Virus record (IMG/VR): IMGVR_UViG_3300046804_001050
Span: 1 to 40,146 of that record
Source of the DNA: a virus
Strand: one strand, 5' to 3'
DNA: 40,146 nt
Shown piece by piece: positions 2,802 through 32,654 of the stretch (its first letter is position 1; every line of letters begins with the position of its first letter). The notes beneath the pieces were generated by a model, which was given only the letters and a program-made list of their open reading frames with translations, was not told the origin of the DNA and did not search any database. The position numbers and the translations under genes are program-made.

Positions 2802-3025
2802 GCAGCAACATGACAGCAACAGAGCACGAAGCAATAGCTTTTTTCTTCAAAGAGTATCCCGACGGCTGGGACGTTGAACAGATACTTGATGCGCACCACG
2901 ATAACCACCCGCGCGTTAAGCTGTGGGTCATGTTTGAATCTCTCGACCCGTCAGACATTGCCAGCGCAGTCAACGACCTGCTGCACTTAATTCGACGCAT
3001 TAAAAAACAAGGAGCAACGCTATGA
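2798..3025 (+). CDS. Small acidic early protein, paralogue of the 2186 gene
   Basis: 75 residues; resembles the 2186-2392 product as described there (conserved aromatic FF, ILDA helix, W..FE..D segment, hydrophobic C-terminal helix). The start overlaps the previous stop and its own stop overlaps the next start. Function unknown. Confidence 0.7.
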   Translation: MSSNMTATEHEAIAFFFKEYPDGWDVEQILDAHHDNHPRVKLWVMFESLDPSDIASAVNDLLHLIRRIKKQGATL

Positions 3026-3261
3026 CCAACGATGACCGCCAAGCGCTCTATAAGTCCGCACAACTTACGGAACGTGAGAAACGCTACTTGCGCTTACTCA
3101 CGCAACAGTCAAACAACGCAGAGGCGCTCGCGCACTTTTGCAAATATGTCGGGTGGACTGACACGGACACCGCACGGCCTAAGCAAAAGCCGTTCTCTTA
3201 TCAACTGCAACGCTTAAAAACACTCGCAGCAATGCCTAATCTTTGGAATAAACTGAGGTAA
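3022..3261 (+). CDS. Small basic early protein, unknown
   Basis: Not recognised. 79 residues, basic, rich in Gln, Leu and Lys, helical, ending in NLWNKLR. A nucleic-acid-binding role would fit its charge but no motif proves it. Coupled to the gene before by an ATGA overlap. Confidence 0.6.
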   Translation: MTNDDRQALYKSAQLTEREKRYLRLLTQQSNNAEALAHFCKYVGWTDTDTARPKQKPFSYQLQRLKTLAAMPNLWNKLR

Positions 3262-3266
3262 AAAAC

Positions 3267-3548
3267 ATGGCTATTGATCTTCTCTCTCTACACCCTGACG
3301 AAGCTGAGCGCATTGCATACGCTGAGGGCTTCAGCTCCGCCGCTAAACTGCTGTCACGCGTGGCAGATGCCCAGAACGGACGGTATTTCGCCATCGAGCA
3401 CCTCAAAGCAGTACTCAAAGCAGCAACAGAAGGCGACACGGCACAACTGACACGCGCCGTGTTTTCTGCGTATGTTTTTTTAGAAAAAATTGGGCATAAT
3501 ATAGCGCCCGACACAATCCTGGAGCATGACAATGACCAAGAAAAATGA
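3267..3548 (+). CDS. Small early protein, unknown
   Basis: Not recognised. 93 residues, largely helical, with a hydrophobic stretch 'LTRAVFSAYVFLEKIG' and a charged C-terminus. It starts 5 nt after the previous stop behind TGAGGTAAAAAAC and overlaps the next gene by 17 nt. Confidence 0.65.
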   Translation: MAIDLLSLHPDEAERIAYAEGFSSAAKLLSRVADAQNGRYFAIEHLKAVLKAATEGDTAQLTRAVFSAYVFLEKIGHNIAPDTILEHDNDQEK

Positions 3549-3735
3549 TTTCACAATCATAAATGACCTTAAAGAGCACGCGACATACCTAGAGTCCATC
3601 GCGCAAGCGCCAATCAATCCTGAGTTTGCGTACAAACTCGAACGCGCTGCCCGTGTTATGCGCAAAGCGTCGCGTATGTTAGAGCTCGAAGACGATGGTT
3701 ATATTCCTATGTTTTTACGCAAACAGGCTCGATAG
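3532..3735 (+). CDS. Small early protein, unknown
   Basis: Not recognised. 67 residues, helical and basic. Two ATG codons occur two codons apart (3526 and 3532). GGAG ends 1 nt before the first but 7 nt before the second, so 3532 is the better start. It overlaps the end of the gene before. Confidence 0.65.
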   Translation: MTKKNDFTIINDLKEHATYLESIAQAPINPEFAYKLERAARVMRKASRMLELEDDGYIPMFLRKQAR

Positions 3736-3736
3736 T

Positions 3737-4090
3737 ATGGAGCACCCAAACGATAGGGGCTGTCGCGGGCTGGTCGCTGCAATGATCTTGCAGGGGTTCA
3801 AAGACCTGCGCATGATGACCAGCGCGGACGGTCACAGCCCTGAAACTGTGCGCGATCTGGCTTGGGCATGGATACACGAGAAAGTGACGTATGCCCGCGA
3901 CCCTAGCAGCCATAAGAACCCGAAGAAGCAGCGCCTGAGAGCGTATAGAACACAGGACGTGGGCGGGTTCGAGTGGTGCTGCTGTATGCTCGACCTTGAT
4001 CCTGAGTATTACAGAACCCTTAGCATGACCCGCGAGGGCATCAACTCGATTCTAGGCCGTCACGGGAGCAACCAACACCATGCAAAATGA
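3737..4090 (+). CDS. Conserved-looking phage protein, unknown
   Basis: 117 residues. The middle is basic; the second half holds a triple cysteine in 'GGFEWCCCMLDLDPEYYR', a pattern I have seen in phage early proteins without a known function. An upstream ATG at 3695 is in frame but lies within the previous gene; 3737 begins 1 nt after that gene's stop and is preferred. Its last 11 nt overlap the next gene. Confidence 0.6.
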   Translation: MEHPNDRGCRGLVAAMILQGFKDLRMMTSADGHSPETVRDLAWAWIHEKVTYARDPSSHKNPKKQRLRAYRTQDVGGFEWCCCMLDLDPEYYRTLSMTREGINSILGRHGSNQHHAK

Positions 4091-4367
4091 TGACACCAAC
4101 GGGCGCAAGTTTGACACGGGCAAACTGCAATATAGTCTGATCCCACCTGAAGCCCTGCGCGAGACTGTTGCAGTGTTGACCTATGGCGCTACAAAGTACG
4201 CGCCAGATAATTGGCGCTATGTGCCAGACGCTAAGCGCCGATACTTTGACGCAGCACAGCGCCACCTCTGGGCATGGAAGGCAGGGGAAGAAACTGACAG
4301 CGAGACAGGCGCAAACCATCTCGCGCACGCTATTTGCTGCTTAATGTTTTTGTTAGAGACTAAATAA
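4080..4367 (+). CDS. MazZ-type dATP/dGTP diphosphohydrolase-like (DUF5664)
   Basis: 95 residues. The order 'KFDTGKLQYSLIPPEAL ... VLTYGATKYAPDNWRY ... RYFDAAQRHLWAWKAGEETDSETGANHLAHAICCLMFLL' matches the dATP/dGTP diphosphohydrolase N-terminal family (DUF5664), an all-helical MazG-like fold. The EE..D..TG..H segment carries the acidic residues expected to bind metal and phosphate. Family members hydrolyse purine dNTPs; the best-known, MazZ of cyanophage S-2L, works with PurZ. I see no PurZ in this window, so a role in general nucleotide-pool control is more likely. It is the last gene of the early cluster. Confidence 0.75.
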   Translation: MQNDDTNGRKFDTGKLQYSLIPPEALRETVAVLTYGATKYAPDNWRYVPDAKRRYFDAAQRHLWAWKAGEETDSETGANHLAHAICCLMFLLETK

Positions 4368-4397
4368 AAAAGCCCCCAGCCGGAGAGCATGGGGGCT
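4366..4397 (-). terminator. Intrinsic terminator after the primase/helicase gene
   Basis: Stem AGCCCCCA (4371-4378) with TGGGGGCT (4390-4397). On the - strand the hairpin is followed by six T (the A run at 4366-4371). It ends the leftward replication transcript 20 nt after the stop codon of the 4417 gene and lies between convergent genes. Confidence 0.85.
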
Positions 4398-4416
4398 GCC
4401 TAGATAGGCTAATTGC

Positions 4417-6720
4417 TCATTTCCTAAGCGGTATCACATTACCCACCACAGGCGCGGGTTCGCACATGCGGCGCAATTCTGACTTTGCTGTGTATTCAAA
4501 CTCAGGTGCACAGAACACATGCCGCTTGTTTGGATACTCACGCGACGCAATGCGCCCTAAATCTACCCAGCCCGCCTCGCGTAGCGCGTGCAATAGCGCG
4601 GCCTGCGGCACTTTGACCCCTGCCGGAACATAACCAACCAATGATTCGCAAATGGCATGGAACGGTGCGCCGATCACACCCTTGGCGAACACGCCCTCAC
4701 GGCGCTGCATCAAGTCCACAAGGTAAGATTCGGCGGTAGACATGCCGAGGCCAATCAATACCTGCTTCGCTTCTGTCATCGGTGGGCACATGCCCGCGTT
4801 AAAGTTTGAAACGTCGCGGGCGTACAGGTAAGCGCACACGGCAGACTTGCCGCCGGACTCATACCAGCGCCACAAGGCGCGACTCTGTTCTTCTGGCATA
4901 CGCTCTGCATCAGACCAAACGACAAACCAGCGCCGATCATCTGAGGGCAAGCTGATCGCGGCACGCTCGTTTGAGTACGCTAAAACAAACAAGCGATTAA
5001 GCGCGTAGTAAGGCGCAAGCCCTTTGCGGTTGACGGATAGCAACTCAGGCGGGGCGGCGATTAGGGGCTTGAGATTGTTCTCTAACGCTCTGCGGTCTTT
5101 CGCTTCTGCCTGTCGCAGTTCGTTAATGAGCATGACCTCAGCTTCAAGCGCATAGCCCCACGCGCTGTTGAGTTCTTCATTGCGCACGATGGAGACGTTC
5201 ACGAGCTTATCGCCGCCGATGCCCCACAGGAACGGGGCGTAGAGCGAGTCCTTACCAGAACCGGCGCGGCCTGCGTGCAAAATGGCGTGATTGATCTTGA
5301 CGTTCGGGTGCTGCAACTTATAGGCGAGAACGTCCAGCACATGTTCACGCTCGAATTCCTCTGGGATCATGCGCTCAAGGTGATCAAGCCAAGGCTTGAC
5401 ATCGCCCGCCATAACTTCTGGGCGTGCATCTTTCCACCTATTGCCATACGGCAGACCATCGCGTGCCACTTGTACGTCCTCGCCTGCGGCGTAGGTCACG
5501 CCGATCAAACAGCGTGCGCCCATTTGCTGCCTGTTCTCATCAAAACAGACAGACGCCTCGACGCGGCGCTTGCCATCGTGAATAGACTTGCAGGGAATAT
5601 GCCGGAACAATGCGTTGAACGTGCTGCGGGCGATCTCGCGACGTTCTGAGAGGTCAAAATAAGCGTCGTCGTCTTGCAGATAGGCAAAACGCTCGTACCA
5701 GCTCGCCTTCTCGATCCGTCCCAGCTCTTTGCGTTCTACTTCTTCGATCACTGCGGCGGCTTGGTCTGGGAACATGTCAGTTGGCTTCAATTTCGATAGG
5801 GTGTCGGTCATTGTGGCAGCCAGTAGGTCATCTCGCAAGCCCGTTTGGACGGGCGGTGCGCCGTTCTCTGCCGTCCACGCTAAAAAGCGTGCGCTGTTCA
5901 AATCGCCGCAATGCTCATGGAAACATGAGAACGAGCGCGTAACAGGGTGGTAGCGTGCCTCTGGATTGCCGTCACTGTGCTCGTCCTTGTTTGGGCACGC
6001 GACGCTGTACCAGCCCTCTGGGTTGCGGCCTGACAGCACTAAGCCCTGAGTATTCAGCCAGCCCAAGATCGCGTCCTGTCCGTCGTCCTTCAGCCGTATG
6101 GCCTGAATCTGTGCGGTGTCGGCTTCTTCTGGCACAACGCCCAGCGCCTCGCAAATCTGGCGCAGGCTGAACTCGCGCTCAGGATGGAACTCGACCAATT
6201 TAGAGGCGAAGCCGCCCTTGCCTTCTTTTAGGTTGACACTTCCAGGAATTCGGAAGTTGCGCACGGCATTGATCGCGCCGCCATCGGTGTAGCCTGCGTT
6301 CGCTATGGCCTTAATCGCTGCGCTAAACTCGCCCGTCGTGGGCTGATCGTCTAGTCCGAAGGTATAGCCCCACTGATAGTTATCCGTAGAGGTTTCGATT
6401 TTCCACGTAGGCTCAAGCGGTGGCACTTTGGACTTCGTGCCTACATCATCGAGCACCATGACAAGCACGTGCGTGCAGTTTGCGCTCGAAGCTGACAGCT
6501 TGCCATCTTTGAAGCGGTCAAGAATAAAGCTGCCCGTGTTGCCGTACCAAGCGCCCTTGCCTGTATACTCAGACGGCAGGAACGGAGGCCAAGTGTACTT
6601 CGGCGAGCCGTCGCCGTGATACTGTTGTTCACCATTGACAAGTTTAGGCTTTTGCTTTACAAAGAGAGCTGTCTCTCCTTCCGGCGCAAGTTTGGTGAGG
6701 TAGTCGACAAAATTGTTCAT
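4417..6720 (-). CDS. AEP-type primase fused to SF3-like helicase
   Basis: 767 residues. The N-terminal part resembles phage RepB/AEP-type primases: hydrophobic strand then acidic pair LVMVLDDVG (about 86-94), and 'FRIPGSVNLK' (156-165). A zinc-binding-like segment follows (C242, C266, H268/H270, C271). The C-terminal half is a DUF5906/SF3-type ATPase: Walker A GRAGSGKDS (484-492), Walker B EVMLINEL (528-535), and an arginine-rich sensor region near 'SLPSDDRRWFVVW'. It should unwind the fork and lay down primers for the family A polymerase upstream. Start ATG is preceded by AGGAGCAATGAGTC. Last gene of the leftward replication operon. Confidence 0.85.
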   Translation of the reverse strand: MNNFVDYLTKLAPEGETALFVKQKPKLVNGEQQYHGDGSPKYTWPPFLPSEYTGKGAWYGNTGSFILDRFKDGKLSASSANCTHVLVMVLDDVGTKSKVPPLEPTWKIETSTDNYQWGYTFGLDDQPTTGEFSAAIKAIANAGYTDGGAINAVRNFRIPGSVNLKEGKGGFASKLVEFHPEREFSLRQICEALGVVPEEADTAQIQAIRLKDDGQDAILGWLNTQGLVLSGRNPEGWYSVACPNKDEHSDGNPEARYHPVTRSFSCFHEHCGDLNSARFLAWTAENGAPPVQTGLRDDLLAATMTDTLSKLKPTDMFPDQAAAVIEEVERKELGRIEKASWYERFAYLQDDDAYFDLSERREIARSTFNALFRHIPCKSIHDGKRRVEASVCFDENRQQMGARCLIGVTYAAGEDVQVARDGLPYGNRWKDARPEVMAGDVKPWLDHLERMIPEEFEREHVLDVLAYKLQHPNVKINHAILHAGRAGSGKDSLYAPFLWGIGGDKLVNVSIVRNEELNSAWGYALEAEVMLINELRQAEAKDRRALENNLKPLIAAPPELLSVNRKGLAPYYALNRLFVLAYSNERAAISLPSDDRRWFVVWSDAERMPEEQSRALWRWYESGGKSAVCAYLYARDVSNFNAGMCPPMTEAKQVLIGLGMSTAESYLVDLMQRREGVFAKGVIGAPFHAICESLVGYVPAGVKVPQAALLHALREAGWVDLGRIASREYPNKRHVFCAPEFEYTAKSELRRMCEPAPVVGNVIPLRK

Positions 6721-11139: not shown

Positions 11140-12461
11140 GACCCTACCAAGAACTCGCGGCTGATTTCCTCTACGCCAACGACCGCGCCATGATGCTTGC
11201 GCCTGTGGGTGCAGGCAAGACCTGCACTGCGCTGACGGCGATGCAGGCAATGATTAAAGACGGCATTGTCAAGAGGTTTCTTGTTGTTGCGCCCAAGCGC
11301 GTATGCGAGTCGGTCTGGCCTGTCGAAGCTAAGAAATGGGCGCAAATGGATGTCGCTGTGGCTGTCGGTACGCCAAGCGCACGAATGAAAGCGCTTAATT
11401 CTAAAGCGCCTGTCGTGGTGACAAACTATGACAACCTACAATGGCTGGCAGGCCAAGACTTAAACTTTGACGGCATCGTGTTTGACGAGTTGACCAAGAT
11501 GAAGAACCCGTCAGGCAAACGCTTCAAAGCGCTGCACAAGATCATCGACCAGTTCAAGGTTCGTATTGGCTTGACAGGCTCATTCACCAGCAACGGATTA
11601 GAAGATGTGTTCGGTCAGTGCAAGATCATCGACCAGTCGCTGCTAGGCCGTAGCAAAGGCGCGTTCATGCAAACGTACTTTATACCGATCAATCCTGAGT
11701 ACGGCGAGTGGATGCCACGCCCCAAGGCGCTTGAGCATGTGATGGCGAAGATCAAGCCTGCGACCTTTGTGCTAGAAGCCGGTGAATATAAAGACAAGCT
11801 GCCAGAACTGCATACCGTTGAGCTGCGCTGCGACATGGATCGCACGCTGTATGAAAAAATGAAGCGTGACTTTGTAGTGCAGTTTCCCTCTGCCGAAGTG
11901 ATAGCTGCAAACGCTGCGGTAGTGACTGGCAAGCTACAGCAGATGGCTGGTGGCTGGGTGTATGAGACCACGACAACGCCGACAGATGTCGCAGGTAAAT
12001 TCAAGACCACGCAGACGCCCGTATGGTTTAGCAGCCACAAGTTTGATTTATTAGATGACTTACTACAGGAGAATCAACATGCTAATACCATTATTTTCTA
12101 TATGTACAAGGAAGAATTGGCGGAACTTAAAAGGCGCTATCCGCAGGCTATTACTTTGGATGACGAAAATGCTATAGAAAGATGGAACAAAGGCGAAATA
12201 GAACTGTTATTAGCTCATCCGAAAAGCGCACAATTTGGCTTGAACTTACAGTTTGGGGGAAATAGAATGGTATTTACCAGCCTGCCGTGGAGTCTTACGG
12301 ATTTTGAACAAGCGATTGGACGAATTCACCGTAGCGGACAACGGCACGATGTTTGGGTATACATACTTCTAACCAACAAAACAGTGGATGAAAAAATATG
12401 GGCGGCGCTAAACGACAAACAGACTCTGGCACAGATAGCAATGGACGAACTTGCGCCATAG
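11127..12461 (+). CDS. SNF2-family helicase/translocase
   Basis: 444 residues from the ATG at 11127, which follows GGGG by about 6 nt; an in-frame ATG at 11103 would add only eight residues. Motif I APVGAGKTCTAL (about 25-36), motif II FDELTK, motif III LTGS, motif VI QAIGRIHRSGQR near the C-terminus. It is the compact phage form with two RecA-like domains, likely an ATP-dependent translocase acting with the VRR-NUC nuclease in replication or recombination. From about 12040 on, base use becomes clearly more AT-rich than in the first two thirds, continuing into the HNH/AP2 gene that overlaps its end. Confidence 0.9.
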   Translation: MAALRPYQELAADFLYANDRAMMLAPVGAGKTCTALTAMQAMIKDGIVKRFLVVAPKRVCESVWPVEAKKWAQMDVAVAVGTPSARMKALNSKAPVVVTNYDNLQWLAGQDLNFDGIVFDELTKMKNPSGKRFKALHKIIDQFKVRIGLTGSFTSNGLEDVFGQCKIIDQSLLGRSKGAFMQTYFIPINPEYGEWMPRPKALEHVMAKIKPATFVLEAGEYKDKLPELHTVELRCDMDRTLYEKMKRDFVVQFPSAEVIAANAAVVTGKLQQMAGGWVYETTTTPTDVAGKFKTTQTPVWFSSHKFDLLDDLLQENQHANTIIFYMYKEELAELKRRYPQAITLDDENAIERWNKGEIELLLAHPKSAQFGLNLQFGGNRMVFTSLPWSLTDFEQAIGRIHRSGQRHDVWVYILLTNKTVDEKIWAALNDKQTLAQIAMDELAP

Positions 12462-13078
12462 GCGATAAGTTTAATTACCTAACGGTTATTAACGAGCCAA
12501 AAACCAAAAGGAAAAATACTTATGTTGATTGCAGGTGCGATTGTGGTGCTGTTCGTAATATTCGTTTATCTAGACTTTTAGACGGCGAAACTAAGTCTTG
12601 TGGCTGTAAGCATAAAGAATACTTGCGTGCGAAATTTACCATTCATGGGCGATATTTTGAGCCAGAGTATAGAGTTTGGACTAATATGAAAAAACGATGC
12701 ACCGATCCAAGGCTTGCCAAATGGTACTCAACTATATCTGTATGTGAACGATGGTTGAATAACTACGATGCGTTTATACAAGATGTTGGCCGTAAACCAT
12801 CAGACAAACATACGTTAGATAGGATTGACAGCACTGGCAATTATGAGCCTGCTAATGTTCGTTGGGTCACTATGTCAACGCAGTCGCGTAACACTAAAAA
12901 CCATTGCACCAATAAAACAGGTATACGCGGTGTAAGTTGGTCTAAAGCAAAAAATAAATGGCGTGCAGCTATTTATGTGCACAACAAGCAAAAGCATGTT
13001 GGGTATTTTGATTCTATTGACGATGCTAAATTGGCTAGAAAAGAAGCCGAAGCTAAATACTGGAGTGAAGTGAAATGA
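12398..13078 (+). CDS. HNH endonuclease with AP2 domain (homing-type)
   Basis: 226 residues. N-terminal part 'IGDKFNYLTVI...CRCDCGA...SCGCKHKE' with cysteine pairs as in many HNH/AP2 phage proteins; central HNH region 'KHTLDRIDSTGNYEPANVRWVT...QSRNTKN'; C-terminal AP2 DNA-binding domain 'GIRGVSWSKAKNKWRAAIYVHNKQKHVGYF'. Such proteins are free-standing homing endonucleases. It overlaps the SNF2 gene by 64 nt in another frame and is AT-rich compared with the genes upstream, both signs of later arrival. The first 20 residues look non-conserved and may be translation of SNF2 sequence forced by the insertion. Confidence 0.8.
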   Translation: MGGAKRQTDSGTDSNGRTCAIGDKFNYLTVINEPKTKRKNTYVDCRCDCGAVRNIRLSRLLDGETKSCGCKHKEYLRAKFTIHGRYFEPEYRVWTNMKKRCTDPRLAKWYSTISVCERWLNNYDAFIQDVGRKPSDKHTLDRIDSTGNYEPANVRWVTMSTQSRNTKNHCTNKTGIRGVSWSKAKNKWRAAIYVHNKQKHVGYFDSIDDAKLARKEAEAKYWSEVK

Positions 13079-24867: not shown

Positions 24868-26023
24868 TTAGCCCCAAACGCGGCAGGCCATCTGCGGACG
24901 GATCACGCTGTAGCCGTACAGGACGTCTACGCGGCATGGCATACGGTCGTTGTTGATGTCGTATTGACGAACAACGCGTAAGCTGATGCCGTTGTGAACT
25001 GCGCGAGAAGCCATGTCAACGCCTTGTGGTAACAACAAGTCAGCAGTTGCAAAAGCAATCGCATCTTTGTGGTACACGAGGTTCTGAGCATAACCAGTAG
25101 AAGCAGAGCCCAAGAAGATGACGGCTTTGCTGTTACCAGGCAAAGAGTCAACCGTAGCAAGGGCATGAGCAGAAGAATAAACAGGAGCAACAGTGATGTT
25201 ACCAGCACCTGCGCCGCTGAGGGTCACATCAGCCAGTGCAACGAACTGGAACAGAGAACCAGTTGATTCACGGGTTTGTGGGTTGACAGCATAGCAGTCA
25301 GCAACAGTGAATACGTCACCAGTCTTAACAGTTGCAGAAGCACCAGCGCCAGTGATAGCGATGGTCGTTGCGCCTTCAGAAGTTACAGCAGCAGAAGTGC
25401 TACCACCAGTAGCAGTACGAGAACCCACGGTGAAGTTCTTGATCGACTGAGACATGTTGACTTCTTCCAAGCCCAAGATGCCTTCGCCCATCATGCCGTT
25501 CTTGAACTGCTTGCTGATGGTAGAAGTTGGGTTGAACAAGCCCTTCATGCCTTCAACCAAAGCGGCGTTAGCAGCTGGGTTGACGGTAGCATAACGAGGA
25601 GACATGCCAGCGGCATTTTCGTTCAGCTTCTGTTGAGCTTGCAACAGAACCAAAGAAGTGCCAGGCGTTGTGCCAGGAGTACCAACGCTGTTACCAATGT
25701 ACTTGAAAGCGTTAGCAACGTCGGCGTCCACAGAGGCAGCCAACTGGCTGATACGTGGCTTCAGCACGCGGTCAGCAAAGTCGTCCAACTGCATGGTCAG
25801 TTCGGCGCTGGTGAAGTTAATGCCGATGTGCTTTTGTGAAGAAACAGACAGCGTGGTGTACTGTTCGTTGTCATCCTGTGTTTGCAGGGCAGCACCGTCA
25901 GTAACAAGAGCGCGATCCGGCAAGCGGATACGCAGAGTAGAACCGATCTTAGCACCTTCAACAGCGAAGCTGTCGTCGTACTGACGGTTTACGTTACGGG
26001 TGATCACCAAGTTGTTCTCTAGG
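24868..26023 (-). CDS. Major capsid protein, P22 gp5-like, exon 2
   Basis: Codes for residues 19-402 of the coat protein. 'LENNLVITRNVNRQYDDSFAVEGAKIGSTLRIRLP' and 'HIGINFTSAELTMQLDDFADRVLKPRISQLAASVDADVAN' are clear marks of the P22 coat protein (gene 5) family, HK97-like fold. The frame is open upstream to 26082, but those codons (MTYSSPKGRFESNDFKRTFG) match nothing expected and lie in the 3' end of a group I intron. Joining GAT at 26775 to CCTAGAG at 26023 keeps the frame and gives ...TRKSLEI-LENNLV..., the expected coat N-terminus. Length 402 residues. Confidence 0.88.
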
Positions 26024-26774
26024 CCAAATGTTCGCTTGAAGTCGTTACTTTCAAACCGCCCTTTCGGGCTGCTGTACGTCACCGTACAGAGCAGACTATC
26101 TCTTCACCCATTTCTGGGGCTGTGCGCTTCCGGCCACTTGGCCGTACTCCCTTTCGGGATAGTCGTTACGCCTTCTGTTGGTGAGGACAAACGCCGCCGT
26201 TTTTGTATTTGCCGACTTGACAATTCATGCAAAGAACTTGGTATCCAGAAGGAAAGTTACACTTTCTAAGCCACATATAAAAAGCAGTTCCGCTACCTTT
26301 ATATTTACCTGACTTTCTTTCTTCTGCACCATCGTTATTCACGTGGTCAATCGACAAAAACATTCGCTCAGTCTCTCCGCAGCAGTTGCATTTGTAGCCT
26401 CCGTAGGCATCAAATACTTGATTTCTGCATCGGTCTTGGTTTCGTTTGGTTTTCGCTGATTCTGCTGCGCGTATTGCTGCAACTTCTTCAGAATTACCAT
26501 TCGCCAATTTCCGATTGCGCCAATTGCGAGCATGTTCACGAGATTTCTCTCTGTTTGCAGCTCGCCAATCGCGCATACGCTGATTGACTTTTGCTCGGTT
26601 ACGTTCCCGATACCTTGCGGCAGCTTTGCGGTTTTCCGCTTTGCGCCGTTCGGCATCATGACTATCTTCACTTTCAGCTTGGCTCGGTGTTTTCATGTAA
26701 TCATTATACATGACGTCCACCGAGTTCACACAGTTTTTTTCTTGGGGTTACCCCCAAGGGAGACCGATTAGTTA
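26024..26774 (-). mobile_element. Group I intron in the major capsid gene
   Basis: 751 nt on the - strand. P1: exon GGAGAT (26780-26775) pairs with intron GTCTCC (26764-26759), with a U.G wobble at the splice site as group I requires. P2-like hairpin CTTGGGG-GTAA-CCCCAAG (26758-26741). P7-like pairing GACTATC (26164-26158) with GATAGTC (26100-26094). Near the 3' end CTGTACG-GTGA-CGTACAG (26089-26072) and GCCC-GAAA-GGGC (26069-26058), both with GNRA loops. The last intron base is G. The HNH gene ends just before the P7 strand. Exact 3' site is inferred from frame, terminal G and protein conservation. Confidence 0.88.
26166..26711 (-). CDS. Intron-encoded HNH homing endonuclease
   Basis: 181 residues from the ATG at 26711, which has GGTGG 5 nt upstream; a GTG at 26729 would add six residues. 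The N-terminal third (20-70) is Arg-rich and helical, a likely DNA-binding arm. The HNH part: C108, C110/C111, 'FLSIDHVNNDG' (D122, H123), 'FYMWLRKCNFPSGYQVLCMNC' with C161 and C164, and 'GVCPH'. This is the zinc-finger HNH type usual in phage introns. It should cut intron-less coat genes near the insertion site and spread the intron. Its stop codon lies just before the catalytic core of the intron. Confidence 0.88.
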   Translation of the reverse strand: MYNDYMKTPSQAESEDSHDAERRKAENRKAAARYRERNRAKVNQRMRDWRAANREKSREHARNWRNRKLANGNSEEVAAIRAAESAKTKRNQDRCRNQVFDAYGGYKCNCCGETERMFLSIDHVNNDGAEERKSGKYKGSGTAFYMWLRKCNFPSGYQVLCMNCQVGKYKNGGVCPHQQKA

Positions 26775-26827
26775 ATCTCCAAAGACTTCCGGGTGATCAT
26801 GTCAATTGTCAATAATGAATTAGCCAT
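26775..26827 (-). CDS. Major capsid protein, exon 1
   Basis: Codes for MANSLLTIDMITRKSLEI (the last codon is completed by the first base of exon 2). MAN-LLT-DMIT is the conserved start of P22-type coat proteins of this branch. Preceded by a strong ribosome-binding site in GGAGGATAATTTAGATC. Without splicing, translation stops one codon later (AAC TAA), so unspliced mRNA yields only a 19-residue peptide. Confidence 0.88.
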
Positions 26828-26854: not shown

Positions 26855-27643
26855 TTAGCGGTTGCGCTGCGCTTCCCACTTCTTAATCTGACGTAGTCTT
26901 TCGGCTTCAATCCACTCTGATGCTGACATGTTCTTAGTAGAACGTGGGTCAGTCGTATCGTAAGTTGGATTTCCTGAAGCCCTCGACGTTACGGGAGTAA
27001 TCGGCGGTGGTGCAGAAGTTGTACGTTTCACGGGTGGATCAGACGCTAATTTAGCCTCGATCCGTCCAATTTCTTTAGCCTGCAAAAAGGGCGACAGTTG
27101 GGAAATACGTTCCGCTTCTTTGGCGTTAGCACCGAGGTAGTAAGCTACATCAGGGCCAATGTCAGAGTTTTGGATCGTCTCAGCCATCACAGCCGTGATT
27201 TTAAGGGTAGGGTTATAGGCGACTTGTTCAAAGTCGTCGTACTTATCCCGTGCCTTTTCCTCAAGGTCGTGATACTGGTTCAGAGCTTGGGCGTGCTGCC
27301 GTTGGCGTTCCCGTTCTGCCAGCAGTTCTTCAGCCTTTTTGACGGCCAACGCTTCCGCGTAGGCTTCAGGGCTTTCAAACTGATCAGCAGGCGGAATCTC
27401 CTTTGGAGCTTGCTTGGCTTGCGTTTCGGCAAGTTTAGCGGCCTGTTCTCGTTCCCATTTGCGCTGTTCTCTTGCGAGGCGCTTACCAATGGCTGCGTCC
27501 AGTTCTTCTTGTGTGAAGGTCTTGGTCGCTTGCTCTACTGGTTTTTCTTCCGGCGTACTTACTTCTTCAGCTACAGGTTCAGCCGTCACAACCTGTTCTG
27601 GCGCGGAGTCTACTTCCGCTAGGGCTTGCACTTCATCAGTCAT
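26855..27643 (-). CDS. Scaffolding protein
   Basis: 262 residues. Acidic, disordered N-terminus (1-40), then a helical charged middle (EELDAAIGKRLAREQRKWEREQAAKLAETQ) and a basic C-terminal helix (WIEAERLRQIKKWEAQRNR) that would bind the coat protein, as in P22 gp8. Lies directly before the coat gene. In the P22 order it also sits between portal and coat, but here a tail cassette is placed between portal and scaffold. Confidence 0.85.
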   Translation of the reverse strand: MTDEVQALAEVDSAPEQVVTAEPVAEEVSTPEEKPVEQATKTFTQEELDAAIGKRLAREQRKWEREQAAKLAETQAKQAPKEIPPADQFESPEAYAEALAVKKAEELLAERERQRQHAQALNQYHDLEEKARDKYDDFEQVAYNPTLKITAVMAETIQNSDIGPDVAYYLGANAKEAERISQLSPFLQAKEIGRIEAKLASDPPVKRTTSAPPPITPVTSRASGNPTYDTTDPRSTKNMSASEWIEAERLRQIKKWEAQRNR

Positions 27644-27741: not shown

Positions 27742-29658
27742 TTACCATATATCCTGTTGGAATTTAGAAGGATAATTTTCTCTTAATCCAGACAACGGAA
27801 GAATATATGCCCAAGCAAATTTGCGATTTTCGTCCGTATATCTTCCATACCAAGTTGCCGTAATATAAGTAGCAGTGCCTGGTGTTGTGCTTGGTAAAAT
27901 GTCAACAGAACCTGTATCACCACTTCCCCAAAATACTAATGGGGCTGCACTTGTAGTAAATGTTGCGCCGCCTTGAGCATCTTGCAATGTAGTAGTAACA
28001 ATTCTTCGCTTTGCAGTTCCGCTATCGCCGCCAATTATAGTTACTAAAGTAGTAGCTTGTGATCTATAATATTTTTTACCTAAAACTTCACCATTGGCAT
28101 CTGAAACTGTAACAAGGATGAAACTTAATATATCACGGTTAGGAACTGTATACGTATCATCAAAATATACAGGTATTGTTGCTTTAACATATCCAACACC
28201 AGCGCCAGGTGCTGTTTCACCAACTATTCTATAGTCAATATCTTTATATATTGATCTTTTATATTTACTAGTTGGTGGAGTAGAATCATAGCAAAATGCT
28301 TCTAATAAAGGATCAACCAGTTTATCTGTTTGAGCATTGTATATATTAGAAAAGCCCAATCGAGTAGCTTCATCTATAGTAATTGAATGGTATGTCAAAG
28401 TGCCTGGTACTGACGGAACAGGATAAGTTGTATTAGCTGTTCCGCTATATGTGCCAGCAGCATTAGCTGAAATTAACCCATCTGCACAATAACCGCCCTT
28501 TACATTGCGAAGATTTACAGATCCAGGATACCCTTGGATGTAGGTGACTAAGGGCTTTCCATTACCAAAATATACGGTGTCCTCAATCGTAATAGACGGC
28601 AATTTTAAGTATCCGCCAGTGATGCTGGTTTCTGCTGGGCCGGTTAAATTGTCATAGAACCAAATTAACGGGCGCGTACTTTCGGCTGAGAAACGGCAAT
28701 TTTTAATGTTTAAGAAACGCAAACTTCGTGCGTTTGAATCGCCGTTAGATGAATTGCAAACCATGTCAATCCAGCGAGAATTATTTACTGGAGATACTTG
28801 AATTCCGTGCGGGATAAAAAATGTATTTTCAATGGTTACATTGCCATCGCCAGAAAGATAAATTGGTGCGGCTAAAGAGTCTCTCTTGGCATATATCCAG
28901 CAATTTTTTATGTTCATTACATCTGTATAACCTTTAACAAATACAGTTGTATCAAAACAATACGTATCTTGAATATTTACTAATGTAGACCTAGAACTGG
29001 CATACGCAACAGTGTCAATAAAAGTTGTGTTATTTGCTGATTCGCAAGATTCTACTAATAATTCACCAAAATTGGTGTTTGATGAGTTAAAACTAATTGC
29101 AGTAGCAAAATATCCGAACATCATTTTTTTGAAAATGTTCTTTTTTGCTCCGCCAGTAAAATTAAACCCAATATTTGTTCCAGAAACAGTTGCACTTCCG
29201 TTGCCGATAATAACTGTACCTTGTTCTGCTTCAAAAATTAAACATGCTTGTCTATTTGTAAGCGCCGGTGCTGGAATTACAACACCGTTTGTTTGCGCAA
29301 TTTTGTAAACGCCATAAGGAAAATATACTCCAGCATATCCATTTGAAGATGTTCCTCCGTCTTGAGAATAAATTCTATAGCTTGTTTGTTGGCTTATTGT
29401 TATTGCATAATCCACTGCTGCCTGAATCGCAGCCGTATCATCCGTCACGCCATCGCCAACAGCACCAAAGTCCTTAACAGACACGGTCTCACGCAATTTG
29501 GTTTGCACGCTTGTAGTGACAGCACCCGTTCCAGCAGGTACGTATGGCATCGCAGCCAATGTCGTACGTACCGTTGTGCCGCTTTGCACAATCGGTACGA
29601 TCTCAGAGCCGGTGAGCGTTGAGGCGGGGTTCAGACCAGTTATACTTACACCAGACAT
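27742..29658 (-). CDS. Tailspike with pectate-lyase-like beta-helix
   Basis: 638 residues. N-terminal virion-binding part 'ISITGLNPASTLTGSEIVPIVQSG' (1-30), then 'VQTKLRETVSVKDFGAVGDGVTDDTAAIQAAVDYA' (51-85), the standard entry to a right-handed beta-helix of pectate lyase 3 type. The centre (90-440) has the Asn/Ile/Val ladder expected of the helix ('NIKNCWIYA', 'TIENTFFIP', 'LNIKNCRFS'). C-terminal 180 residues look like a beta-sandwich for trimerisation or binding. It probably degrades a surface polysaccharide. The first 85 residues are paralogous with those of the 30972 gene; the body is AT-rich, as expected of exchanged host-range modules. Confidence 0.8.
   Translation of the reverse strand: MSGVSITGLNPASTLTGSEIVPIVQSGTTVRTTLAAMPYVPAGTGAVTTSVQTKLRETVSVKDFGAVGDGVTDDTAAIQAAVDYAITISQQTSYRIYSQDGGTSSNGYAGVYFPYGVYKIAQTNGVVIPAPALTNRQACLIFEAEQGTVIIGNGSATVSGTNIGFNFTGGAKKNIFKKMMFGYFATAISFNSSNTNFGELLVESCESANNTTFIDTVAYASSRSTLVNIQDTYCFDTTVFVKGYTDVMNIKNCWIYAKRDSLAAPIYLSGDGNVTIENTFFIPHGIQVSPVNNSRWIDMVCNSSNGDSNARSLRFLNIKNCRFSAESTRPLIWFYDNLTGPAETSITGGYLKLPSITIEDTVYFGNGKPLVTYIQGYPGSVNLRNVKGGYCADGLISANAAGTYSGTANTTYPVPSVPGTLTYHSITIDEATRLGFSNIYNAQTDKLVDPLLEAFCYDSTPPTSKYKRSIYKDIDYRIVGETAPGAGVGYVKATIPVYFDDTYTVPNRDILSFILVTVSDANGEVLGKKYYRSQATTLVTIIGGDSGTAKRRIVTTTLQDAQGGATFTTSAAPLVFWGSGDTGSVDILPSTTPGTATYITATWYGRYTDENRKFAWAYILPLSGLRENYPSKFQQDIW
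29435..29505. repeat. 71-bp direct repeat, copy 1 (tailspike N-terminal module)
   Basis: Identical with 32389-32459 except for two bases. It codes for the segment QTKLRETVSVKDFGAVGDGVTDDT in both spikes. It could serve as recombination site for swapping spike bodies. Confidence 0.85.
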
Positions 29659-30971: not shown

Positions 30972-32654
30972 TTATAAATCTATTGAAGCAAAACCTAATG
31001 CCGCAAACCCTGTATAAGCGTTCCAAACTGCGCCGGTTGGTTTCAATATTACAAAACGCGAGTTAATGTTTTCTAACACTACATTAAAAGACGCATTGCC
31101 TGACGCTGCTGTTCCTGAAGATGTTGTCACACTAGCAACAATAGACCCTGTACTCATTGCTGTCGTGTCTGGAACTAATACATCAAATGTCCCATATACG
31201 CCTGGTCCTACGCCGTTATTAAAATATGTGCCGTTTATTTTTACTGATTTAACGATTGCCCCGAAATCTATTACTACTTGCTGGGCCGCAGTAACAAATA
31301 TACCAATACGGGTAGAAAGTCTTGCAGGATAATATTCAATAGTTGCAGTAGATCGTGAATCTATCATGCTAATTATGGATGCTTTTAATTTATCTAATGT
31401 ATAACCATAACTTGTATTCAAAAAACAAAAGTAATTTGCTCTAGTCGATCTATCGTAAGGGATTGAAAATTGCATTACCGATTGAGCAGAACGTCTCAAT
31501 TTTGCAGTATTCTGAATACCTAACATTGTAGGATTAGTTTTATTTGCAGAATACATGAAAAATGCGCCATATCCTTGCATACGCTTTTTATACAGTAATG
31601 TACGCAATTTATTTGGTTCTGAAATATCTGTTGCCGAAGAACTAGATAAATAAGTTTCATACACAGGAATAATTCTATTTGCACCATATAACGGCGCAAA
31701 AGAACCTAATACCGCATAAGTATTCAGAGCATCTGTATCTGTCAAAACTGGATTATTGCTGTTTTTAGTTTGATAATATAAATCTATAAAAACAAAATCA
31801 TAATTAGGTGAAAGCGCAAAATTTGGGAAATAATCACCGTTTTCTGCGCAAACGCAAGGCAAATTTAATACGGCTTTTGAAGCTGTAATTGCTGCATCTT
31901 GATCCGCTAATGAAACGCCAGTGGCATTTGGCTCGTCAAATACATACCAGCCGATAAGATTTTCAACAGTATTAAATTGACTTATTCTTGTGGTTCTAAT
32001 TCCTGTATCTGTTCCATTATACACCCACAATAATACTCCTATGCCATGTGTAGCAAAGTTAGCAAAATCTTTTTTTGCATTAGCTACACGGGTAGAGTCT
32101 GTAGTTCCATTAAAATAATATATGACGTACGAAACACCGAGGCTTGCAATATCAGCTGCCGCGTTAACATCACCATCCAGTTCTTCGGTATAAACACCCC
32201 AACCGTTGTTAAAATTTTTATTTACGCTTTTTCCAGCAGCTTTTAAATTTGCATAATAAACGTCAACACTTGGAAATGTAATATCATTATACGCAAAAAA
32301 AGTGCCGCTAACGGAAGTTGTAACTAAATAACTTCCATAAGGAATATAAACTGGTTGCCCTGTAGCCGCTGCATTCGTAAATGCCGCAGTATCATCCGTC
32401 ACGCCATCGCCAACAGCACCAAAGTCCTTAACAGACACAGTCTCACGCAATTTGGTCTGTACAGTAGTGGCTACTGCGCCAGTGCCTGAAGGCAAATATC
32501 CGACTAAAGCTGATCCATTAGTTTCAGCTAATGGATTTAACATGTTATCTACAGTCGTCTGTGACGTCACGCCACTCTGAACAATAGGAACAAGCTCCGC
32601 GCCTGTGAGCGGCGTGGAGGCAGCAGGAAGGCCGGAGATTTTGACGTTTGCCAT
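30972..32654 (-). CDS. Tailspike with putative TIM-barrel glycoside hydrolase domain
   Basis: 560 residues. N-terminal 'ISGLPAASTPLTGAELVPIVQSG' and 'QTKLRETVSVKDFGAVGDGVTDDTAAF' are paralogous with the 27742 spike. From about residue 125 the sequence is not a beta-helix. It reads like an alpha/beta barrel: 'NNGWGVYTEELDGDVNAAADIASLGVSYVIYY', 'HGIGVLLWVYNG', 'NLIGWYVFDEPN' (D240/E241), 'YDFVFIDLYYQ', 'RIIPVYETYL', 'GYGAFFMYSA'. A hydrophobic strand ending in FDEP with a preceding GWY is characteristic of many clan GH-A type glycosidases. The last 150 residues look beta-rich. I infer a surface-glycan hydrolase; specificity unknown. Confidence 0.7.
   Translation of the reverse strand: MANVKISGLPAASTPLTGAELVPIVQSGVTSQTTVDNMLNPLAETNGSALVGYLPSGTGAVATTVQTKLRETVSVKDFGAVGDGVTDDTAAFTNAAATGQPVYIPYGSYLVTTSVSGTFFAYNDITFPSVDVYYANLKAAGKSVNKNFNNGWGVYTEELDGDVNAAADIASLGVSYVIYYFNGTTDSTRVANAKKDFANFATHGIGVLLWVYNGTDTGIRTTRISQFNTVENLIGWYVFDEPNATGVSLADQDAAITASKAVLNLPCVCAENGDYFPNFALSPNYDFVFIDLYYQTKNSNNPVLTDTDALNTYAVLGSFAPLYGANRIIPVYETYLSSSSATDISEPNKLRTLLYKKRMQGYGAFFMYSANKTNPTMLGIQNTAKLRRSAQSVMQFSIPYDRSTRANYFCFLNTSYGYTLDKLKASIISMIDSRSTATIEYYPARLSTRIGIFVTAAQQVVIDFGAIVKSVKINGTYFNNGVGPGVYGTFDVLVPDTTAMSTGSIVASVTTSSGTAASGNASFNVVLENINSRFVILKPTGAVWNAYTGFAALGFASIDL
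32389..32459. repeat. 71-bp direct repeat, copy 2 (tailspike N-terminal module)
   Basis: Partner of 29435-29505, with two mismatches, at the same place of the reading frame of the other spike. Confidence 0.85.

Follow-up and report, generated by a model that had tools for sequence, protein, structure and literature searches.

A putative mobile group I intron in the coat protein gene of a P22-type podovirus and its relation to free-standing HNH endonuclease genes at the same locus

Introduction

A spliced group I intron within a capsid gene has been described for mycobacteriophage LittleE, where splicing was shown by RT-PCR and N-terminal sequencing (PMC3706429), and that account also cites lactococcal phage Tuc2009. 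Free-standing endonucleases that target intron insertion sites are documented for cyanophage psbA and for T7-like phages, a relationship known as collaborative homing (PMC3984707). In phage ICP1, group I introns with variable endonucleases reside in the tape measure and terminase genes, and endonuclease turnover has been offered as an alternative to collaborative homing (PMC10448857). How endonucleases and self-splicing introns unite into mobile introns has so far been argued from few phage examples.

The locus analysed here lies in a record of 40,146 bases, the whole of which is referred to as the window. It resembles that of LittleE in having a group I-like intron of ~0.8 kb in a major capsid gene, an endonuclease ORF and relatives with an empty site. 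By contrast, the capsid family and the insertion site are different, and the LittleE ORF, which is LAGLIDADG-like or HNH, lies on the opposite strand (PMC3706429). The consulted text on LittleE describes no free-standing counterpart of its endonuclease next to uninterrupted capsid genes. A preceding reading of the window from its sequence alone had called the coat gene an uncommon choice of host gene, a point that LittleE partly pre-empts. The collaborative homing systems (PMC3984707) share with this locus an endonuclease gene adjoining its target, a conserved intron site and ORF-less introns; unlike in those systems, the same endonuclease family occupies both places within one phage group here, and cleavage is what we infer. 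ICP1 is similar in that late structural or packaging genes are split, HNH content varies while the junctions stay, and a HEG lies beside a split gene. However, other genes are concerned, and its variable ORFs are only ~30% alike, as compared with 60-80% inside and outside introns here (PMC10448857). The HNH enzyme gp210 of phage PhiPA3 is likewise encoded within a group I intron that interrupts an essential gene; it differs in that this gene encodes a jumbo phage RNA polymerase and that nicking and blocking of a rival phage's gene have been proven (PMC11620839). Spliced capsid-gene introns (LittleE), variable endonucleases in late genes (ICP1) and collaborative homing are known already. Within the searchable literature, and as far as the papers show, what is new is that one endonuclease, together with its hairpin, occupies both positions at a coat gene, and that there is a series of insertions in capsid genes.

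Results

The portal, terminase, scaffold and coat genes are all encoded on the minus strand of the window, the coat gene coming behind the scaffold gene (Table 1). Exon 1 (MANSLLTIDMITRKSLEI...) begins with ATG 26827 and has GGAGG just before the start. In the unspliced form its frame reaches a stop (ATT AAC TAA) two codons past the start of the insert and yields 19 residues, exactly as the sequence-only reading had stated for an 18-codon open start behind a strong ribosome-binding site. Joining of the two exons results in a 402-aa protein that matches Pfam family P22_CoatProtein (PF11651) end to end (126 bits, profile positions 1-423), while the coat body without exon 1 scores 117 bits; it is this full-length match of the joined exons that places the product among the P22-type coat proteins. 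The 5' splice site reads GAGAU^U and the 3' site G^C. The intron had been placed after codon 18, and the site is right, except that the 5' junction lies one base earlier than the codon boundary so that codon 18 is split AT/C. The proposed insert length of 751 nt turned out to be exact.

Table 1. Coordinates of genes, intron and predicted ribozyme elements in the window
Feature	Position	Strand	Remarks
Scaffold gene	26855-27643	-	coat gene comes behind it
Coat gene exon 1	26775..26827	-	53 nt; codons 1-17 plus AT of codon 18
Group I intron	26024..26774	-	751 nt; covariance model, covariation
P1	26759..26780	-	exon GGAGAU with intron GUCUCC; U.G at splice site
P2 hairpin	26741..26758	-	CUUGGGG GGUAA CCCCAAG region; double changes in 7/7 pairs, strong covariation
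P3 5' strand	26727..26733	-	CUGUGUG; partner 26126-26120
P4-P5 domain	26683..26724	-	P5 hairpin CAUGUAUAAUGAUUACAUG at 26712-26694, contains and would hide HNH start codon
HNH endonuclease ORF	26166..26696	-	176 aa; ATG 26696; inside P6 loop; coat-gene strand
P7 5' strand	26159..26164	-	GACUAU; partner AUAGUC 26099-26094
P7.1 (CCCGAAAGGG) and P7.2 (CGGCCAAGUGGCCG)	26131..26158	-	covariation
P3 3' strand	26120..26126	-	CGCACAG
P8, J8/7, P7 3' strand	26094..26119	-	covariation
P9 (GUGA loop), P9.1 (GAAA loop), P9.2	26035..26089	-	covariation
Coat gene exon 2	24868..26023	-	from C 26023 to stop at 24868; P22_CoatProtein PF11651

That the coat gene is split by a group I intron, as the same reading had claimed, is borne out by homology, covariation, empty-site alleles and invariant splice-site bases; the U.G pair of P1 at the splice site, the GNRA hairpins and P7 that it listed are all present. 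In an alignment of 39 distinct introns, 13 helices (P1-P9.2) comprising 72 proposed pairs were recognized, and standard pairs make up 98.5% of the cells at these positions. Double changes occur at 34 of the 72 pairs, against a maximum of 24 among 500 shuffles and 1-12 when one strand was slid, and sliding by 1-3 bases left pairing at only 30-44%; both controls were run on helices that had been chosen from these same sequences. The U of exon 1, its G partner in P1, the last G of the intron and the first C of exon 2 are invariant in all 39 introns. The intron has the conserved core helices P3-P8 and the P7 with R/S sequences that characterize group I, and the location of P7.1 and P7.2 between the P7 5' and P3 3' strands is that of subgroup IA2. 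Judged by these predicted helices, the intron is of the IA type with P7.1 and P7.2.

The ribozyme core of the window was recovered with 164 bits (E 2.9e-46) by a covariance model trained on 16 other introns and not on the window itself; the same model found no ribozyme core at 35 loci with a free-standing HNH gene. The search with Rfam Intron_gpI (RF00028) that had been proposed earlier gave no match to the window at the gathering score (28.8 bits versus a cut-off of 50), whereas ORF-less introns at the same codon (L005, L086, L094, L112) reach 64-75 bits against that cut-off. The low score of the window is probably due to the 0.5-kb ORF, which splits the Intron_gpI model. Taken as sequence evidence for a predicted group I intron, the 164 bits with our own model and the 64-75 bits of the ORF-less homologs outweigh the sub-threshold Rfam score. 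Matches to bxd_4 and Yar_1 in a small-region Rfam search were discarded as chance matches to short lncRNA models. The reading frame of exon 1 ends two codons past the splice site in 45 of 50 introns; early in-frame stops are common in phage group I introns and are thought to clear ribosomes (PMC3984707).

The sequence-only reading made no mention of the intron-borne HNH ORF, which is key to what the intron is. The start codon of this ORF lies within P5, and its N-terminus MKTPSQA is read from the P4 and P6 strands. The encoded protein matches a PHROG of HNH endonucleases (phrog_2255, E 3.5e-6), resembles phage proteins annotated as IceA or HNH (38-51%) and belongs to a family with invariant DH, N and CxxC pairs. 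Its AlphaFold2 model has a pLDDT of 85, and the structural matches in the PDB are weak (best Z 4.2) and mostly to HNH nucleases. Comparison with Pfam and NCBIfam gave no match, and a PDB sequence search returned nothing. From motif, profile and these weak but consistent fold matches, the protein is a putative HNH enzyme. Median dN/dS values of 0.12 in introns and 0.13 for free-standing genes point clearly to purifying selection on the HNH gene. A longer ORF of 187 aa starting from GTG 26729 was rejected since most relatives have a stop at its codon 8; the conserved start is ATG 26696.

Viral contigs supplied 80 close coat relatives, of which 79 were readable across the junction. The coat frame is uninterrupted in 77 of these, where the junction reads MANS.LTIDMITRKALEI/LENNLV without a break, and two (L005, L052) have an insert at the same codon. 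A second sample of 118 loci, picked by coat pattern, contained 109 uninterrupted genes and no intron, the remaining loci being contig edges, start-codon variants or other coat types; an HNH gene is located in front of the coat gene in 8 of the 109. Bacterial genomes with this coat gene (Rhizorhabdus, a Rhodoferax MAG and others) are also intronless. On these counts, the intron is rare and its absence is the normal state.

On a coat tree built from codons 41 on, intron presence requires 23 changes (at least 18 if well-supported branches are counted) and the presence of a free HNH gene 25 (at least 22). Synonymous difference among intron alleles is 0.21-0.29 at codons 10-24 versus about 0.45 in the rest of the gene, where they behave like empty alleles. 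Patchy distribution and local dip would fit repeated homing with short co-conversion. P1 pairing alone accounts for codons 16-18 only, and shared ancestry or site preference may add to the dip over codons 10-24. Judged by its distribution among coat alleles, the element appears to be mobile at a single site, and it behaves like a parasite rather than a regulator.

Scans seeded with the HNH protein yielded 85 distinct relatives of more than about 60% identity with readable context. Fifty of them reside in an intron at coat codon 18 and 35 are free, with the scaffold gene on one side and an uninterrupted coat gene on the other; these 35 end 74-87 bases ahead of the exon-2 position. At any other place none of the 85 was found. 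Ahead of the free HNH genes lies a hairpin whose loop reads (U/A)(A/G)AUGAU, or an abbreviated version of it; the hairpin pairs with the HNH ribosome-binding site in 18 of 21 folded leaders and shows double changes at 6 of 13 pairs. In HNH-bearing introns, P5 is a hairpin of the same kind, whereas ORF-less introns have different P5 and P6 hairpins and an otherwise unchanged core. Because the hairpin is common to free leaders and HNH introns and absent from ORF-less introns, the two seem to move together with each other, hairpin and ORF forming a single cassette. The intron of L005 is 99% identical to that of the window over the core, and this comparison suggests that the ORF was lost or gained as one block. 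In the aligned stretches (L005 2742-3000; window 26774-26024), P5 and P6 alone differ between these near-identical introns, of which that of L005 is without the HNH ORF.

The loop of the free leader hairpin (e.g. L054 2355-2410) is similar to a -10 box (TAnnAT) and might serve a second function. A promoter role of this box in the shared hairpin is possible but less favoured: there is no convincing -35, and the covarying stem speaks for a role as RNA. Free HNH genes and ORF-less introns exist at the same coat gene, but in separate records; none held both, a weak negative result as records may be incomplete. Codon usage at the target differs in genomes with a free HNH gene; we do not claim these differences as marks of resistance, relatedness being an equally good explanation. 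In HNH trees the intron and free states need 2-4 changes, and the root is weak. At least two independent switches between intron and free state, as hinted at by free trees, were withdrawn as a claim because the AU test does not reject a tree with all free forms in one clade (p-AU 0.81).

A search for distant HNH relatives with the ctDrO704 protein as query revealed four that adjoin the same type of ribozyme core (L190, L274, L276, L288). The first three interrupt a Phage_capsid_3 gene (PF13252), each at a different site; in L288 the split gene is again a coat gene of the P22 type, and the site lies about 12 codons further on. Every intron-borne member found (50 plus 4) interrupts a major capsid gene, with five insertion sites spread over two capsid families, in what is a small sample from scans seeded by the endonuclease and not by capsid genes. 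The other distant HNH genes are without intron. Related RNA cores occur in many phages, where they are found in DnaB, polymerase and other genes, and the preference for capsid genes would therefore belong to the endonuclease. L190 corresponds to MW202512.1 24162-30527 (Podoviridae ctDrO704), where the Phage_capsid_3 gene (2804-4498) is split after about codon 35 by an intron carrying an IceA-like HNH. In the public annotation the internal piece alone is given as major capsid protein, an example of how annotation pipelines truncate such coat genes.

Discussion

Very probably, the coat gene of this P22-type podovirus harbours a mobile, ORF-bearing group I intron, for which we infer splicing, cleavage and homing. 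Ribosomes would stop two codons into the intron, which would then fold. Guanosine would attack after GAGAU, and the exons would be joined as GAG AUC CUA, with GAGAUCCUAGAG as ligated exons. The coat protein would be made from the spliced RNA and would contain the junction-spanning peptide SLEILENNLVITR. The HNH enzyme is expected to cleave, close to codon 18, the coat genes of co-infecting relatives that lack the intron, and repair of the break off the intron-bearing copy would carry along short flanking exon stretches. The same cut would let the free-standing form both guard and propagate itself at this locus (intronless or collaborative homing).

At one coat site in one phage group, empty genes, ORF-less introns, HNH introns and free HNH genes coexist in dozens of natural variants. 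Since the same HNH gene also sits outside unbroken coat genes, several stages of mobile-intron origin may be on view at a single site, and with all four states present there, the question of this origin becomes testable by simple cleavage assays. It is tempting to speculate, and we do so tentatively as we hold it to be somewhat less than probable, that a single HNH lineage specialized on major capsid genes alternates with its leader hairpin between life in an intron and free life. Both forms would cut the same coat site; the hairpin would hide the ribosome-binding site in the free form and serve as P5 in the intron, and the step between the two would amount to formation or break-up of a mobile intron. 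If true, such an event has been caught in nature.

The free HNH genes may be ancestral and have been captured, together with the leader hairpin, by an intron with which they collaborated, or else the free forms escaped from the intron; we give an origin of this kind about an even chance. Compatible with it are the common HNH family, locus and hairpin of intron and free forms and the other P5 and P6 hairpins of ORF-less introns, and an old age of the intron form is suggested by the distant relatives that reside in introns of capsid genes. As to direction, the free forms scatter in the trees, yet a single free clade is allowed and the root is weak.

That the intron of the window is a fossil which still splices but whose endonuclease no longer cuts, and which is inherited vertically in this phage, is in our view unlikely. 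In its favour, the window HNH is far from its nearest relative (dS > 1), and the same RNA occurs ORF-less in the close relative L005. Against this, the ORF of the window is intact with all family-invariant residues present, and dN is far below dS.

The sequence-only reading suggested that splicing could time capsid production, which would make the intron a regulatory switch kept to the benefit of the phage. The coat protein is made late and in bulk, and an unspliced message gives nothing but the 19-residue peptide. However, this proposal found no support and is very improbable: the coat gene is unbroken in the great majority of relatives, the intron is patchy on the coat tree, and no feature ties splicing to timing. 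Still more improbable is translation of the coat protein without splicing from an in-frame start in the insert (e.g. GTG 26082) with exon 1 as a relic, because, although 27 open codons precede exon 2 in its frame and some start exists in the window and in 33 of 50 introns, such a start is preceded by a Shine-Dalgarno motif in none of the 50 and is absent from that frame in 17, intron alleles retain frame, ribosome-binding site and sequence of exon 1, and the segment in question is structured ribozyme (P9-P9.2) with compensatory changes.

Apart from the coat locus, the window contains a second, unrelated free-standing HNH gene (12398-13078, plus strand; phrog_374, weak AP2 domain) beside a helicase-like gene. 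A 134-nt direct repeat (29412-29545 and 32366-32499; 79% identical) is found in two tail-type genes with a common N-terminal module.
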